Source: Desulfococcus multivorans
GTDB lineage: Bacteria; Desulfobacterota; Desulfobacteria; Desulfobacterales; Desulfococcaceae
NCBI RefSeq assembly: GCF_001854245.1
Contig: NZ_CP015381.1
Coordinates: 2,639,001 to 2,703,000 of the forward strand
DNA: 64,000 nucleotides
Direction of reading: 5' to 3'
Shown here piece after piece: positions 8,976-17,301 of the stretch. The notes beneath the pieces are model-generated. The model saw only the letters and a list, made by a program, of their open reading frames with translations. It did not search any database and had not been told where the DNA came from. Numbering within the stretch: position 1 is the stretch's first letter; each line of letters opens with the position of its first letter. The translations under genes and the position numbers were made by a program.

Positions 8976-9143
8976 GGTCATCCCTCTCTTGTAATTTGTG
9001 GCGATTGCCGTTATATTTTTCTGTTTGATTTCACCTTCGGACCCGCGCCTTACGCGAGGGTGCACCTACACCGAGCCATAAAGAACCATAAATTTTGATA
9101 GTATGACACTTTGCGGCAAACCTCAACATCAAAAGGAAACCCC

Positions 9144-10037
9144 ATGAGAATCGTGACGCGTCCTGATTTTGACGGCATCGTCTGTGCCGTCCTTCTCTAT
9201 GATATGGAATCGATCGATCAGCCCATCCGGTGGGTCGAGCCCAATGATCTGCAACAGGGTCGTGTAACCATCCGGAAAGGCGACATCATCGCCAACCTGC
9301 CCTACCATCCCAACTGCGCCATGTGGTTCGATCACCATTACACCAACAACCCCGGCACCCCTTTCAAAGGCCTTTACCGAGTGGCGCCGTCGGCGGCCGG
9401 CTTGATCCACGAATATTATGGAAAGCGGTTCCCAAGAGATTACGACGAACTCATTCGTCAGACCGATCGGATCGATTCCGCCGATCTGAGCCTCGAGGAG
9501 GTGCTCCACCCCGAAAACCACCCTTACATCCTTCTCTCCATGACCGTGTCGGGACGGGATACGTCGGAGGAAAGCTACTGGAACCGCCTCGTCGGGCTGA
9601 TCCGCCGCAACGACATCCATGCCGTCCTCGCGGATCCGGAGGTGAAACGGCGATGTGATCGCGTTGTAGACATCAACGCGCAATACACCCCTGTTCTGCA
9701 AAAACATACCACTCTGGAAGGCCACGTATCGATAACCGATTTCCGGGCGATAGACGAGGTCCCCAACGGGAATCGCTTCCTGGTATACTCCCTCTATCCC
9801 GATGCCGTGGTCAGCGTGCGGATTCGATATGACGGTCGGAAGAAAAAGCGGGTAATCATCGGTGTGGGGCACAGCATCTTCAATCGTCACTGCAGGGTTA
9901 ACGTCGGCCTGTTGCTGGCACGCTTCGGGGGAGGCGGACACCGTGGTGCGGGATCCTGCACCGTATCCGCCGAAGCGGCGGACGCATGTCTCGGTTCCAT
10001 CATAGAAACCCTCAAACGCAATGAACCCAACGAATGA
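9144..10037 (+). CDS. DHH/DHHA1 phosphoesterase (exopolyphosphatase-like)
   Basis: A 297-residue member of the DHH superfamily of metal-dependent phosphoesterases. Residues 1-15 give RIVTRPDFDG, the first metal-binding Asp pair. FDHHYTNN near residue 75 is the DHH motif. FGGGGHRGAG near the C-terminus is the DHHA1 substrate-binding loop. The ATG at 9144 has AAAGGA 7 bases upstream. Family members hydrolyse oligonucleotides, cyclic dinucleotides or polyphosphate; the actual substrate cannot be chosen from sequence. A strong bidirectional hairpin terminator follows about 95 bp after the stop. A second DHH protein with CBS domains lies 6 kb downstream on the other strand. Confidence 0.8.
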   Translation: MRIVTRPDFDGIVCAVLLYDMESIDQPIRWVEPNDLQQGRVTIRKGDIIANLPYHPNCAMWFDHHYTNNPGTPFKGLYRVAPSAAGLIHEYYGKRFPRDYDELIRQTDRIDSADLSLEEVLHPENHPYILLSMTVSGRDTSEESYWNRLVGLIRRNDIHAVLADPEVKRRCDRVVDINAQYTPVLQKHTTLEGHVSITDFRAIDEVPNGNRFLVYSLYPDAVVSVRIRYDGRKKKRVIIGVGHSIFNRHCRVNVGLLLARFGGGGHRGAGSCTVSAEAADACLGSIIETLKRNEPNE

Positions 10038-10780: not shown

Positions 10781-10966
10781 CTATTGAAGAATGCCCATCT
10801 TCTTTTTCAGTTCCAGCAGATCCGCTGCCGCGGTAGAGCTCTTGCCGCTTTCCAACGCCGTCGTAATCTCGTCGTCGACGGTCTTTTCCGGGGTTGCGAG
10901 GTCGCCGTAGGCGATGGCCATTCCCATATCGATCAGATATGCCTTCACCAGATCAAACTTGTTCAT
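10781..10966 (-). CDS. Small hypothetical protein upstream of the DUF4178 gene
   Basis: A 61-residue acidic, helical protein of no family I recognise. The start at 10966 is decided by a near-perfect AGGAGG five bases upstream; the longer reading to 11005 would add 13 residues without a ribosome site. It contains VKAYLIDMGMAIAYGD and a Leu/Lys-rich C-terminal helix. There is no signal peptide and no Cys. It is followed by the DUF4178 gene after 11 bp, so the two are probably one transcript and perhaps one complex (inference). Confidence 0.6.
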   Translation of the reverse strand: MNKFDLVKAYLIDMGMAIAYGDLATPEKTVDDEITTALESGKSSTAAADLLELKKKMGILQ

Positions 10967-11065
10967 AGTTGCCTCCTGAGGTGCCCACCCGAAAATTTCA
11001 TCCACAATCTAACGCGTAATCAGTGCCGATCAAGATCCGGAACGGAAAAACCGTCTTGGGCTGGA

Positions 11066-11170
11066 AAAGACTGAAGGCTGAAGGGGTGTGCCTGTGGTGA
11101 ACGGAGCACTTATCCCTCTTTTCTTTTCTGACCTCTGTCCTCTGACCTCTGTCCTCAGCCTTCAACCGCT
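11066..11170 (-). repeat. Dispersed palindromic repeat, copy A
   Basis: Intergenic element bounded by GACTGAAGGCTGAAGG and an inverted CCTCAGCCTTCAACC. Read on the minus strand, the inner part (ATAAGTGCTCCGTTCACCAC, then AGGCACACC) aligns with copy B at 58766-58833. This copy is expanded by a 14-bp tandem duplication. Together with the stretch to 11450 it fills a gap of about 480 bp that otherwise holds only a possible promoter. Confidence 0.65.
11128..11155. repeat. 14-bp tandem duplication inside repeat copy A
   Basis: CTGACCTCTGTCCT occurs twice, head to tail and without mismatch, within the palindromic element. It is probably a replication-slippage product and is a candidate length-variable site. 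Confidence 0.8.
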
Positions 11171-11199
11171 ACCCGGCCACCATAACGAAAGCCAAAAAG

Positions 11200-11227
11200 T
11201 TGATATATATGGTATTTGTTATATACA
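11200..11227 (+). promoter_or_regulatory. Possible sigma-70 promoter for the helicase-exonuclease gene
   Basis: TTGATA, 16 bases, TATACA, in an AT-rich patch about 220 bp before the helicase start. The match is moderate and the leader would be long, so this is tentative. Confidence 0.3.
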
Positions 11228-11450
11228 CATTTTGTTTTTTTATCAAGAAAATAGAAATTTATTCAGCACGTCGTTCCGTACCGTAATCCTCCCATGCCAT
11301 TATCATCGACGGGGTGTGCGATGTCGTGATTCGACGCCTCATCGGACGGGATTTTCGAGATCCTCCCGACCCTGTTTTTGCTTGTCCGGCCGCTTTGATT
11401 CTGATAATCTTCAGTTTTAAGCCCTTTGCAGGAAAGTACCGCTCGGCGAA

Positions 11451-14342
11451 ATGAAATTCGGCTCCGACATCAACGAGTATATCCGTTCCCTGAAAGCCTC
11501 CCCCCGGATGGGCGATCAGGTGGTTTATCACATGACGCTTCCGGAGCGCCCGGCAGACTTCGCCGCGCTCGAGCGCCCTCTTGCCGATCCTCTCCGTAAA
11601 ATTCTGACGGCCGCCGGCATCAACCGGCTTTACCGGCATCAGGCTGCAGCCGTGGACATGATCCGGACCGGCCGTCACGTGGTGGTCGCCACCCCGACAG
11701 CGAGCGGGAAAAGTCTGGTTTACAACCTGCCGGTTCTGGAGCGTATTCTGGAGAATCCCGATTCGAGGGCTCTCTACCTTTTCCCGCTGAAAGCCCTCGC
11801 TCAGGACCAGCTGCGCACGTTTTCGGCGATGCTCGGGAAGAGCGACGTCCTCAAAAAAGCGACGGGAGCCATCTATGACGGCGACACCAGCGCCTGGCAC
11901 CGCCGCCGCATCCGTGAAAAACCGCCCAACGTGATTTTTACCAACCCGGAAATGCTTCATCTCTCGCTGTTGCCTTATCATGAAAAATGGGCCGGTTTTT
12001 TATCGAACATCAAGATCGTGGTCATCGATGAGGTCCACACCTATCGTGGTATTATGGGATCTCACATGGCCCAGGTGTTCAGGCGTTTCAGACGGATCTG
12101 CACCCATTACGGCGCATCACCTGTATTCGTCTTCAGCTCAGCCACCGTCGCCAACCCGGCGGAACTGGCCGAAGCGCTTACCGGACTCATCGTGACGCCC
12201 GTCACCGAAAGCGGTGCGCCTCAGGGGAAAAAGCACCTGGTCTTCGTGGACCCGTTTCAGGGGCCCGCCCAGACCGCCATTCTTCTGCTCAAAGCTGCAC
12301 TTTACCGAGAGCTCAGAACCATCGTCTACGCGCAATCCCGAAAACTCACCGAACTGATCGCGCTTTGGGCCGGAAGTCGCGCGGGGGCTTTTGCCGACCG
12401 AATCAGCCCGTACAGGGCCGGATTTCTCCCTGAGGAGCGACGCGAGATCGAAGGGCGCCTTTCCGATGGAGAGCTTCTGGCGGTCATCTCCACCAGCGCC
12501 CTGGAGCTGGGCATCGACATCGGCGATCTGGACCTCTGCCTCCTGGTAGGTTACCCCGGCACCATTGTCGCTACATGGCAACGCGGCGGTCGGGTGGGGC
12601 GGAGCGGCCAGGATGCGGCGATCATCCTTGTCGGCGGAGAGGATGCCCTGGACCAGTATTTCATGCGGAATCCCCTGGAATTGGTCACCCGGGAAGCCGA
12701 GGCCGCTGTGATCAACCCTCGAAATCCGGAAATTCTCAAACGCCACCTGCTTTGTGCCGCCGCTGAGTTGCCCCTTGACCGCGACGAAGAGATCATAAAC
12801 GAGAATGCCGTCAAGCAGGCCGCGGATGCCCTTGAGGCTGCCGGAGACCTTCTCAGAAGCGGTGACGGAAAACGGCTTTTCAGCCGTCTCAAGGCACCCC
12901 ACCGTCTGGTGGACTTGAGGGGAACCGGCAGTCGATTTGCCATCGTCTGCGCTCAAACCGGATCCAACAAGGGTGAAATCGACGCTTTCCGCGCCTTTCG
13001 AGAGACCCACCCCGGTGCCGTCTATATCCACAACGGCGATACTTTCCTGGTGGAAACCCTCGACATCGACGCCGGCATCGTCAAAATCGCCCCGGCCAAG
13101 GTGAACTATTATACCCGGGTGCGGGCCAACAAGACGACCGAAATTCTCGAGATTTACGAGGAATGCACCGCGTGGGGAACCCGGGTCTTCACCGGCCGCT
13201 TGAAGGTCACGGACCAGGTGTCCGGATATGAAAAGCACCCGATCCACGGCCGCGGAAAGCGCGCCGTCATCCCCCTGAATCTGCCGCCCCAGATCTTTGA
13301 AACCGAAGGCCTGTGGATCACTATTCCGGACTGGGTACAGCGAAAAACGGAGACGGAACGACTGCATTTCATGGGCGGCATCCACGCCGTCGAACATGCG
13401 GCCATCGGCATTTTCCCACTCCTGGTCATGACCGACCGAAACGATCTGGGGGGCATTTCGACTCCGCTGCACCCCCAGGTCGGATGCGCGGCCGTCTTTG
13501 TCTACGACGGCATACCGGGAGGAGCCGGACTGAGCCGGCAGGCTTTCCGGAAAACGGAGACGCTGCTGGAAGCGACCCTCAAATCCATTACGGCCTGCGC
13601 CTGCGAATCCGGTTGTCCTTCATGCGTCCATTCCCCCAAATGCGGCTCCGGCAATCGCCCCATCGACAAAGCAGCCGCACGATTCATTCTGGAAACCCTT
13701 CAGACCGCCGCCGAGTCCCTTCCAACACCGGAACCGTCCAGGCCTGCAAGGCCGACACTGCCCATGCCGGCCTCAATACACCCTTCGTTTCAAGGTCGTT
13801 CTCCGGCCCCGAAACGTTTCGGTGTGTTGGACATCGAAACCCGGTTGTCAGCCGATGAGGTGGGGGGATGGCACCGAGCCGATCGGATGGGTGTCAGCTG
13901 CGCCGTACTTTACGATTCAGGGGCGGATCGTTTTTTTGATTATCTGCAGGACCAGATACCGGCTTTGACGGCACGCATGAAAACGTTGGATCTCGTGATC
14001 GGCTTCAACGTCAATCGTTTCGACTACCGTGTGCTGACCGGCCAGATCGATTTTGATTTCAAAACACTGCCCACCCTCGACATACTTGAGGAGGTCAAGC
14101 GGTACCTTGGATATCGACTGTCGTTGAACCATCTGGCGAGCGTGACCCTGGAAACGGAAAAAACGGCCGACGGCCTTCAAGCCCTGCGGTGGTGGAAAGA
14201 GGGCCGCATCCAGGACATCATTGACTACTGCCGAATGGATGTAGCGGTCACCCGTGATCTTTATCTTTACGGTAGGGAAAAGGGCTACCTGCTTTTTCGG
14301 AACAAAGCCCTCAACATCGTTCGGATCCCGGTCCGCTGGTGA
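11451..14342 (+). CDS. MrfA-like DEAH helicase fused to an MrfB/YprB-like exonuclease domain
   Basis: A 963-residue protein with two parts. Residues 1-750 form a superfamily 2 helicase of the MrfA/Hrq1 type: Walker A TPTASGKS (81-88), Walker B DEVH (193-196), motif VI QRGGRVGRSG (377-386), and a DUF1998-like end with a Cys cluster (C716, C718, C722, C725, C731). After a Pro-rich linker, residues 789-963 form a DEDD/RNase H-like exonuclease: DIE at 794-796, IGFNVNRFDY, and YCRMDVAVTRD. In Bacillus subtilis MrfA and MrfB are separate neighbours that act together in mitomycin-C adduct excision (established). Here they appear as one chain, so a DNA repair nuclease-helicase is the inferred role. 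Confidence 0.85.
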   Translation: MKFGSDINEYIRSLKASPRMGDQVVYHMTLPERPADFAALERPLADPLRKILTAAGINRLYRHQAAAVDMIRTGRHVVVATPTASGKSLVYNLPVLERILENPDSRALYLFPLKALAQDQLRTFSAMLGKSDVLKKATGAIYDGDTSAWHRRRIREKPPNVIFTNPEMLHLSLLPYHEKWAGFLSNIKIVVIDEVHTYRGIMGSHMAQVFRRFRRICTHYGASPVFVFSSATVANPAELAEALTGLIVTPVTESGAPQGKKHLVFVDPFQGPAQTAILLLKAALYRELRTIVYAQSRKLTELIALWAGSRAGAFADRISPYRAGFLPEERREIEGRLSDGELLAVISTSALELGIDIGDLDLCLLVGYPGTIVATWQRGGRVGRSGQDAAIILVGGEDALDQYFMRNPLELVTREAEAAVINPRNPEILKRHLLCAAAELPLDRDEEIINENAVKQAADALEAAGDLLRSGDGKRLFSRLKAPHRLVDLRGTGSRFAIVCAQTGSNKGEIDAFRAFRETHPGAVYIHNGDTFLVETLDIDAGIVKIAPAKVNYYTRVRANKTTEILEIYEECTAWGTRVFTGRLKVTDQVSGYEKHPIHGRGKRAVIPLNLPPQIFETEGLWITIPDWVQRKTETERLHFMGGIHAVEHAAIGIFPLLVMTDRNDLGGISTPLHPQVGCAAVFVYDGIPGGAGLSRQAFRKTETLLEATLKSITACACESGCPSCVHSPKCGSGNRPIDKAAARFILETLQTAAESLPTPEPSRPARPTLPMPASIHPSFQGRSPAPKRFGVLDIETRLSADEVGGWHRADRMGVSCAVLYDSGADRFFDYLQDQIPALTARMKTLDLVIGFNVNRFDYRVLTGQIDFDFKTLPTLDILEEVKRYLGYRLSLNHLASVTLETEKTADGLQALRWWKEGRIQDIIDYCRMDVAVTRDLYLYGREKGYLLFRNKALNIVRIPVRW

Positions 14343-15999: not shown

Positions 16000-17301
16000 T
16001 CAATCCGGGAGCATGTCATAAAAGTAGAGCATCACGTCCGAACGCGTGACGATGCCGATGATCTCATCATTTTCAACCACCGGAAGCCTGCCGATGTCGT
16101 GCTTCACCATCAGCCGGGCTGCCTGCATAGGGCTCTTTCCCGGTTCAATGGTTCGGATATCCTTGCTCATGAAAGCCCTGACAGGTGCTTTCATGTCCTT
16201 ACTTTTTCGAACCTTCCTGAAATCTCGACGGGAAATGACCCCTACCAGGCGACCGTCTTCCACCACCGGCAGCCCGGTACAGCTCTTTTCCGTGAGAATC
16301 TTGCGGAGATCGGACATGGACGCGTCGGCGGATATGGTCATCACCGGGAAAGACATGAGATCACTGATCTGGACCGAAGCCTGCTGATTGCCTTGGATAA
16401 GTTCGGTGATCATCTCCTGGATCGTATCGGGATTGACAAAATCGACCATAGCCGACCCCGCCCCCGGATGTCCTCCGCCGCCGAGACTTCGCATGATGGC
16501 GCCGATATTGAGGCCGTCGGCGTTGCTGCGCCCGATGACGATGGACTTGCCTTTTCTCTGTCCGGTAAATATGCCGAAGACCGCATCGACATTCAGGATC
16601 TCCCGGCACATCTGAGCCACCACCGAAAGGCTGCCCACATGGCCATCGATGTCGATCTTGTGGAAAGAGACCTTGTACCCGTTGATGCTTTCCCTCTCCT
16701 CGGATTTGAGCATCTCAAAAAGGACGTTCTTCTGTTTCTCCCCGTAGGCGGGCCGAAGGAGGGATGCGACCACGTTGACATCGGCCCCCATTTCCATCAG
16801 GTAAGCGGCGGCCATGACGTCCTCGGGGCAGGTGGCCGGGAACATGAAGCTTCCCGTATCCTCATGGAGGCCCGTCAGGAAAAGGGTTGCCTGTATCGGC
16901 GTGAGCGGTTTGCTTTCCAATCGCATCTGACGCACCATCAGCGTAATGTTGGCCCCCATGGTTTCGTGTCGGATCCAGTTGGCGTTGATGTCGCCCTTGT
17001 CCGGATGATGGTCCCAGACAATCACTTCCAGGTCGTCCACCCTGGCTTTGAGTTTGCGAAGACCGTCCAGCCGATGCCATTGGTTGACGTCCACCACGAC
17101 AAGAGACCGCACCTTGTCCAGATCGATTTCATCCACCGTCCGGACATCGAAAAGATCTTTGTGGATGGCAAGGAATGACCGGACATTGGGATTGATGTTC
17201 CGGGGGATCACCGGAACGGCACCCGGATAGAGAACCGTTCCGGCGATGATCGAAGCGAAGCCGTCGAAATCCGTATTTTTGTGGCTCGTGACGATGCGCA
17301 T
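16000..17301 (-). CDS. DHH phosphoesterase with two CBS domains
   Basis: A 433-residue protein. The N-terminal DHH domain has HKNTDFDG and WDHHPDKG, and DHHA1 follows with LGGGGHPGAG near residue 275. Two CBS domains occupy about 310-430 (SCTGLPVVEDGRLVGVISRR and IGRLPVVENDEIIGIVTRS). CBS pairs sense adenine nucleotides. In many deltaproteobacteria this same DHH-DHHA1-CBS-CBS module continues into a poly(A) polymerase/tRNA nucleotidyltransferase domain. Here the protein stops right after MLYFYDMLPD, where that domain would begin. It may be a complete stand-alone regulatory phosphoesterase or a shortened one. It is 4 bp downstream of a membrane protein gene and 3 bp upstream of the ModF-like gene. 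Confidence 0.85.
   Translation of the reverse strand: MRIVTSHKNTDFDGFASIIAGTVLYPGAVPVIPRNINPNVRSFLAIHKDLFDVRTVDEIDLDKVRSLVVVDVNQWHRLDGLRKLKARVDDLEVIVWDHHPDKGDINANWIRHETMGANITLMVRQMRLESKPLTPIQATLFLTGLHEDTGSFMFPATCPEDVMAAAYLMEMGADVNVVASLLRPAYGEKQKNVLFEMLKSEERESINGYKVSFHKIDIDGHVGSLSVVAQMCREILNVDAVFGIFTGQRKGKSIVIGRSNADGLNIGAIMRSLGGGGHPGAGSAMVDFVNPDTIQEMITELIQGNQQASVQISDLMSFPVMTISADASMSDLRKILTEKSCTGLPVVEDGRLVGVISRRDFRKVRKSKDMKAPVRAFMSKDIRTIEPGKSPMQAARLMVKHDIGRLPVVENDEIIGIVTRSDVMLYFYDMLPD

Follow-up and report, generated by a model that had tools for sequence, protein, structure and literature searches.

A YprA-family helicase and a predicted DEDDy exonuclease, distinct from MrfB, share one chain in Desulfococcus multivorans

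In the model for the MrfAB system, the helicase MrfA unwinds and the exonuclease MrfB excises (PMC11194089; papers are cited here by PMC number, for the parts of their text that were available). The same paper describes MrfB as a DEDDh enzyme with a long N-terminal part and a C-terminal TPR. MrfA, along with SftH, is cited for the 3'-5' polarity of YprA helicases in a preprint that also mentions YprA helicases fused to MrfB/YprB homologues, and the nuclease type of those fusions is not analysed in its available text (PMC12458937). The preprint also reports that complementation requires closely related alleles. Here we examine a gene of the sulfate reducer Desulfococcus multivorans DSM 2059 (PMC5109826), whose 4,455,399-bp genome consists of one contig. 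The gene lies in a 64,000-nucleotide stretch of that contig (NZ_CP015381.1, positions 2,639,001 to 2,703,000; hereafter the window), and an earlier note had read it as a fusion of MrfA and MrfB that gives direct genomic support for an MrfA-MrfB complex and places the pathway in a Gram-negative anaerobe. The host is indeed such an anaerobe, and the gene does encode a helicase and an exonuclease in one chain. However, the exonuclease is not MrfB, and we consider it reasonably probable that the product is a single-chain DNA processing enzyme, in which a YprA-family superfamily 2 (SF2) helicase carries a flexibly tethered DEDDy 3'-5' exonuclease of a different kind.

The protein is encoded by a single uninterrupted open reading frame that runs from an ATG at 11451 to a stop codon at 14340-14342, and upstream of this ATG the frame stays open for just 10 codons, or 973 amino acids (aa) open in all. 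The domain search that the earlier note proposed returned DEAD, Helicase_C, WHD_HRQ1, MZB, and RNase_H_2 (Table 1), with all helicase-side Pfam domains inside residues 62-726 and the RNase_H_2 match at residues 840-938. The full-length predicted model had a mean predicted local distance difference test (pLDDT) score of 87 and a predicted template modelling (pTM) score of 0.73. Across 99 relatives, 44-164 aa (median 55) lay between the CGSGN/CGNNN motif and the first strand of the exonuclease. These computations show one chain with identified domains, a disordered linker, and intact catalytic residues, and both the helicase Cys cluster and the exonuclease motifs are retained as the earlier note had read them.

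To compare the C-terminal domain with MrfB, we used profiles built from 47 fused domains, 10 MrfB proteins, and 8 HhH-RNase H domains. True MrfB is present in Desulfobacterota, and the 10 proteins of this type, which are about 430-540 aa long and contain HNxxD and TPR, include 7 that adjoin a YprA helicase gene in their locus. The MrfB profile scored 142.1 bits on the held-out B. subtilis MrfB versus 10.2 bits (E 3.3) on the window domain, and the fused-domain profile scored 3.5 bits on B. subtilis MrfB. Likewise, the MrfB profile found the solved B. subtilis MrfB (8un9) at E 5.7e-45, and the fused-domain profile did not list this entry at E up to 10. Comparison by hhalign gave a probability of 98.3 for MrfB with the HhH type, 76.5 for the fused domain with the HhH type, and 24.6 for the fused domain with MrfB. 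The Exo III residue is Tyr in 46 of 46 fused-type domains versus His in 10 of 10 MrfB proteins. Furthermore, a Pfam search at E 1 detected no TPR in the window protein, which terminates with the nuclease domain, or in 21 nuclease domains, whereas TPR_14 was found in 9 of the 10 MrfB proteins. Taken together, the profile scores, the Tyr in place of His, and the absence of TPR rule out the assignment of the domain as MrfB, and we conclude from these sequence comparisons that the fused nuclease is a different protein. With a nuclease other than MrfB, the fusion offers no direct evidence on an MrfA-MrfB complex in Bacillus. That part of the earlier note falls away, and its placing of the mitomycin-C pathway in this anaerobe stays a proposal. 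One further frame of the phylum, 1214 aa long and carrying MrfB (genome G212), was considered as a true MrfA-MrfB fusion and rejected, as the helicase lies in a different frame.

We also modelled the nuclease domain alone, which yielded the high-confidence structure listed in Table 1. Its nearest folds were family-B DNA polymerase proofreading domains (Foldseek E 4.8e-7; Z 15.2, root-mean-square deviation 3.5 over 164 residues); the structure prediction suggested by the earlier note supported an exonuclease fold. In this look-up 8un9 was outside the 50 entries listed, which has no bearing on its exclusion. The columns of the catalytic residues were invariant among 46 aligned domains, four of them stand-alone, and the DEDDy residues were also invariant in a 56-row alignment. 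PF13482 matched the window domain at 29.5 bits versus a cut-off of 22 (E 8.5e-7), and a stronger match was obtained with phrog_403, a DNA polymerase exonuclease subunit (E 1.3e-10). Based on sequence and model, we conclude that the C-terminal domain is an intact DEDDy exonuclease of the DnaQ superfamily with an RNase H-like fold, for which 3'-5' activity is predicted. A PF13482 search of the D. multivorans genome gave no match, although hmmscan placed the domain above cut-off, which reflects the lower sensitivity of that search; the PF13482 count in our phylum sample of 198 Desulfobacterota genomes (107 of 198) was therefore not used for the fused form.

Relatives of the nuclease also occur on viral contigs. 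A scan of such contigs, which are metagenomic, confirmed at least 54 relatives that are 23-35% identical to the domain. The fused-domain profile scored all 27 of these relatives that were tested with it (median 83 bits, best 143.6), and on the same proteins the MrfB profile reached at most 11.9 bits and the HhH profile at most 26.6. The domain thus aligns better with a DnaQ family other than MrfB, which is the outcome that the earlier note had named as counting against its own proposal. Among the 27 viral frames read, 25 were 130-342 aa long and the other two were 625-626 aa. Annotated phages contained weaker relatives, such as the 'putative exonuclease' of Bdellovibrio phage phi1422 (E 5e-8), and a tblastn search of plasmids with the nuclease domain gave no match at 1e-5. 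In a nuclease tree of 53 rows, the fused domains formed a single clade (support 97/87) nested inside the viral rows, grouped with viral rows L210 and L211 at 97/94, and the viral and fused rows together were split from MrfB and the HhH type at 100/99. By both profile similarity and this common clade, stand-alone YCxxD exonucleases from viral contigs are the closest relatives identified. In a first nuclease tree, which was later replaced, solo rows were dispersed among fused rows, and the deepest branch was L191, a divergent stand-alone nuclease (188 aa, 43% identical; contig G291:C12) whose genome encodes a fused protein as well. This scatter suggests that some solo copies (L142, L143, and L114) lost the helicase secondarily.

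The N-terminal part, residues 1-750, is a helicase of the YprA/MrfA family by both Pfam domains and fold. PF00270, PF00271, and PF22982 scored above cut-off, as did PF09369 (80.3 bits versus 24.2), and the closest solved sequence was that of B. subtilis MrfA (E 2.4e-142). The best fold matches of the full model were the MrfA structures 6znp, 6znq, and 6zns, which occupied ranks 1-4 with template modelling scores by target of 0.74-0.84 and 33-35% identity. The best NCBIfam match was TIGR03817, yet it fell under its own cut-off (732.8 versus 874.1). In a helicase tree of 41 rows, which left out the two long rows L149 and L200, 19 of the 20 fused rows formed a clade at 100/100, and B. subtilis MrfA with nine MrfA proteins of the phylum formed a separate 10-row clade, also at 100/100, that excludes the fused clade. 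Phylogenetic placement thus indicates that the helicase is family kin of MrfA that lies outside the MrfA ortholog clade; the earlier note was right about the family. Four unfused helicases (L201-L204; 749-800 aa; two families) stood beside the fused clade in a 25-row group at 100/100. The twentieth fused row, L207, was grouped with L205 of genome G301, whose frame stops at the contig end and which may or may not be fused. Because L207 falls outside the 19-row clade, a single fusion event is likely without being shown. At three of the four loci of the unfused sister helicases (L201, L203, and L204), the helicase gene is preceded by a ResB-like (cytochrome c biogenesis) gene rather than a nuclease gene. 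At two other loci, L148 (G162) and L206 (G214), a YprA helicase from outside the MrfA clade is immediately preceded by a PF13482 nuclease gene; this reversed-order pair is a third kind of pairing besides MrfAB and the fusion.

Within the phylum sample, 57 of the 198 genomes, from 25 families, carry the fused-type nuclease. In 55 of these genomes the nuclease lies within a frame of 940-1210 aa, and MZB was detected in a frame of the same length in 55 of 55; of the remaining two, G239 has the nuclease in a 711-aa frame and G306 has a fragment that lies at the edge of a contig. Because 55 genomes of the phylum hold the same nuclease in a long frame, the fusion is no chance joining, and the recurrence of the one-frame fusion led us to reject an annotation or assembly artefact. 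True MrfB (E <= 1e-30) was present in 21 genomes from 9 families, and its overlap with the fused nuclease was 0 genomes and 0 families. The survey of fused versus split forms that the earlier note called for therefore found the fused form to be widespread, with true MrfB located in other genomes. The chance of zero overlap is 5e-4 by genome and 0.023 by family, which assumes about 77 families, as counted from codes. The MrfB profile found no MrfB in the D. multivorans genome and matched just a TPR stretch. Scanning named genomes, we confirmed 454 relatives and examined the best 80 (L062-L141). By name these 80 were all Desulfobacterota or Deltaproteobacteria-type (among them one Proteobacteria and one that the tree tool assigned to Myxococcota). 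Of these relatives, 71 had a frame of 940 aa or longer, with the helicase match fully inside the frame in 69 of the 71 (the others being L089 and L097); six were truncated at a contig end, L075 and L127 were short, and L114 had no helicase within its 10-kb locus. The 456-aa frame of L075 (also G029:C49) keeps approximately residues 34-167 and 658-963 without the core between them, which represents either an internal deletion or an assembly fault. Of the 192 genomes in a class-level sample, 150 matched the whole protein at 1e-10, distant helicases included.

YprA helicases are expected to move 3'-5', and the arrangement of the two halves suggests how the protein could work. The helicase would load onto single-stranded DNA close to a lesion, a nick, or a fork and would unwind, with an expected 3'-5' direction. 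The tethered nuclease would then reach and trim the 3' end exposed by unwinding, which would remove the damaged strand. In this way, one molecule would perform the unwinding and excision that are ascribed to MrfA and MrfB, or to WRN. We infer the polarity, the activity, a role in DNA repair, and the filling of the MrfAB niche. Such an enzyme would have arisen from the joining of a stand-alone nuclease like those on viral contigs to a helicase whose YprA subfamily also includes unfused members. Because the nuclease is not MrfB, has kin on viral contigs, and shares no genome with MrfB, the helicase-exonuclease pair appears to have been assembled again from another nuclease. The chances are close to even, if slightly below, that this was a non-orthologous reinvention of MrfAB, in which, across much of Desulfobacterota, a YprA helicase captured a phage-type, proofreading-like DEDDy exonuclease as a tethered domain and the resulting one-molecule repair enzyme stands in for the two-gene system of other families of the phylum.

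Several observations weigh against this interpretation. The activity, polarity, and phenotype of every member rest on inference. The gene neighbourhood is not conserved: at least seven of the eight window neighbours were found in just 0 or 2 of the best 80 relatives (0 for six, 2 for two), and scans of the locus for promoters, terminators, and SOS-type sites gave nothing beyond shuffles or chance. The phage origin and its direction are unsure because the viral rows are metagenomic, some of them perhaps bacterial, and cellular stand-alone kin were sampled within Desulfobacterota only. The mutual exclusion with MrfB is weak once relatedness is considered, and kinship may explain part of it. The distinction from MrfB itself has counterpoints: PolB-type exonucleases are among the structural neighbours of MrfB (PMC11194089), which means that a fold match by itself cannot tell the two nucleases apart, long branches meet at the split between the viral and fused rows and MrfB with the HhH type, and an approximately unbiased (AU) test against a forced clade of fused domains with MrfB was marginal (p 0.038). 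The fused-domain profile also scored one phylum MrfB at 20.5 bits (E 0.0025), its best score on MrfB, and one HhH protein at 23.2 bits; this weak detection indicates that the fused domain and MrfB are remote superfamily kin. Together with the low but nonzero hhalign probability, the common helicase family, the match of PF13482 to both nucleases, and the preprint that loosely groups such proteins as fused to MrfB/YprB homologues (PMC12458937), this kinship would suit a true MrfA-MrfB fusion that acts in mitomycin-C repair and supports an MrfA-MrfB complex. However, the disparity between the MrfB profile scores, the greater closeness of MrfB to the HhH-RNase H type, the Tyr in place of His, the missing TPR, the position of the helicase outside the MrfA clade, and the AU test itself all oppose such a fusion, which we regard as very improbable, its proposed identity being largely refuted.

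The same proteins could instead serve functions other than lesion excision. The layout resembles in principle that of WRN, and the proofreading-type fold of the nuclease would also fit an enzyme that acts at forks or in recombination, on D-loops, flaps, and stalled forks. Tested members of the helicase family are tied to adduct repair (PMC11194089), however, and we consider a WRN-like role unlikely while granting it some weight. Many YprA relatives belong to the defence systems DISARM, Dpd, Druantia, and ARMADA (PMC12458937), which, along with the kin of the nuclease on viral contigs, could suggest an antiviral or counter-element nuclease-helicase. Such a function is improbable, as PADLOC gave partial helicase matches only (best E 1.3e-45, over residues 50-388), the eight neighbours contain no defence gene by Pfam, and the presence of the protein is broad and stable within families. 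It is exceedingly improbable that the nuclease domain has lost catalysis and survives as a DNA-binding relic, given the invariant active-site residues and the confidently modelled active-site fold.

Table 1. Coordinates of the fusion gene and its encoded features, as positions in the window
Feature	Positions	Strand	Size or support
Single ORF: YprA-family helicase, linker, and DEDDy exonuclease	11451..14342	+	963 aa
RecA1 / DEAD, residues 62-236 (Walker A TASGK to K87; DEVH 193-196)	11634..12158	+	PF00270 E 7.4e-31; invariant columns
RecA2 / Helicase_C, residues 285-386	12303..12608	+	PF00271 E 6.8e-11
HRQ1-type winged helix (WHD_HRQ1), residues 421-492	12711..12926	+	PF22982 E 1.1e-8
MZB (MrfA Zn-binding, DUF1998), residues 647-726	13389..13628	+	PF09369 E 1.7e-22
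Cys cluster C716, C718, C722, C725 and C731	13596..13643	+	5/5 invariant in 37 aligned full-length proteins
Pro-rich disordered linker, residues 758-783	13722..13799	+	pLDDT < 50 in full-length model
Predicted DEDDy 3'-5' exonuclease domain, residues 789-963	13815..14339	+	PF13482; pLDDT 95.4; Z 15 to family-B polymerase proofreading domains
Exo I motif (DIE), D794 and E796	13830..13838	+	invariant 46/46
Exo II motif, N853 and D858	14007..14024	+	invariant 46/46
Exo III motif YCRMD, Y926 and D930 (Tyr type)	14226..14240	+	Y and D invariant 46/46; MrfB = His

The eight neighbouring genes examined encode transporters, DHH proteins, a DUF4178 protein, and enzymes, with two that lack a Pfam match. 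Among 381 flanking frames at the loci of the best 80 relatives, the commonest cluster occurred at 21 of 80 loci (for example, L063 1383-2294, minus strand). Some distance away on either side of the window locus lies a DHH-type phosphoesterase-like gene: the one at 16000-17301 contains DHH, DHHA1, and CBS domains, and the one at 9111-10037 has no Pfam match at 1e-5 yet contains DHH and GGGGHRGAG-like motifs. The approximately 660 bases that precede the fusion gene (10788-11450) contain no clear gene, and an AT-rich tract lies near 11200-11265.

Helicase-exonuclease fusions, and YprA helicases fused to a nuclease, are already in print. We found no literature on the nuclease type of YprA fusions, and the available text of PMC12458937, supplements aside, does not mention DEDDy. 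What is new here is the identification of the nuclease as a putative distinct, phage-type DEDDy family and its mutual exclusion with true MrfAB. If our interpretation is correct, YprA helicases were paired with 3'-5' exonucleases on more than one occasion and with different nucleases, which would argue that selection favours unwinding with 3' trimming rather than the MrfB protein itself. Such fusions call for caution when used as evidence for the Bacillus MrfA-MrfB complex, and the compact enzyme would allow both activities to be studied at a fixed 1:1 ratio.

Compared with known systems, the fusion resembles WRN in that one chain joins a 3'-5' helicase to a 3'-5' DEDD exonuclease, although WRN is eukaryotic, has a RecQ-family helicase, and carries its nuclease at the N-terminus. 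With B. subtilis MrfA (YprA, 6znp) it shares the RecA1-RecA2 core, the winged helix, and MZB with its Cys cluster, whereas MrfA stands alone with a separate MrfB, belongs to a separate clade (100/100), and is 35% identical in the fold alignment. B. subtilis MrfB (YprB, 8un9) is likewise a DnaQ-superfamily 3'-5' exonuclease paired with a YprA helicase, but it is a DEDDh enzyme with His, a long N-terminal part, and TPR (PMC11194089), and it gave no significant profile match. DinG of Staphylococcus aureus also combines a helicase and a 3'-5' exonuclease in one chain and functions in crosslink repair; in contrast to the fusion, its nuclease is N-terminal and DEDDh-type, and its 5'-3' helicase is of another family (PMC12345164). 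The viral-contig exonucleases and phrog_403 share with the fusion the DEDDy type with YCxxD and a GW...MG stretch, with a best identity of 35% among the at least 54 relatives, and differ from it in that they are helicase-free in the rows read (130-342 aa, the two 625-626-aa frames aside).

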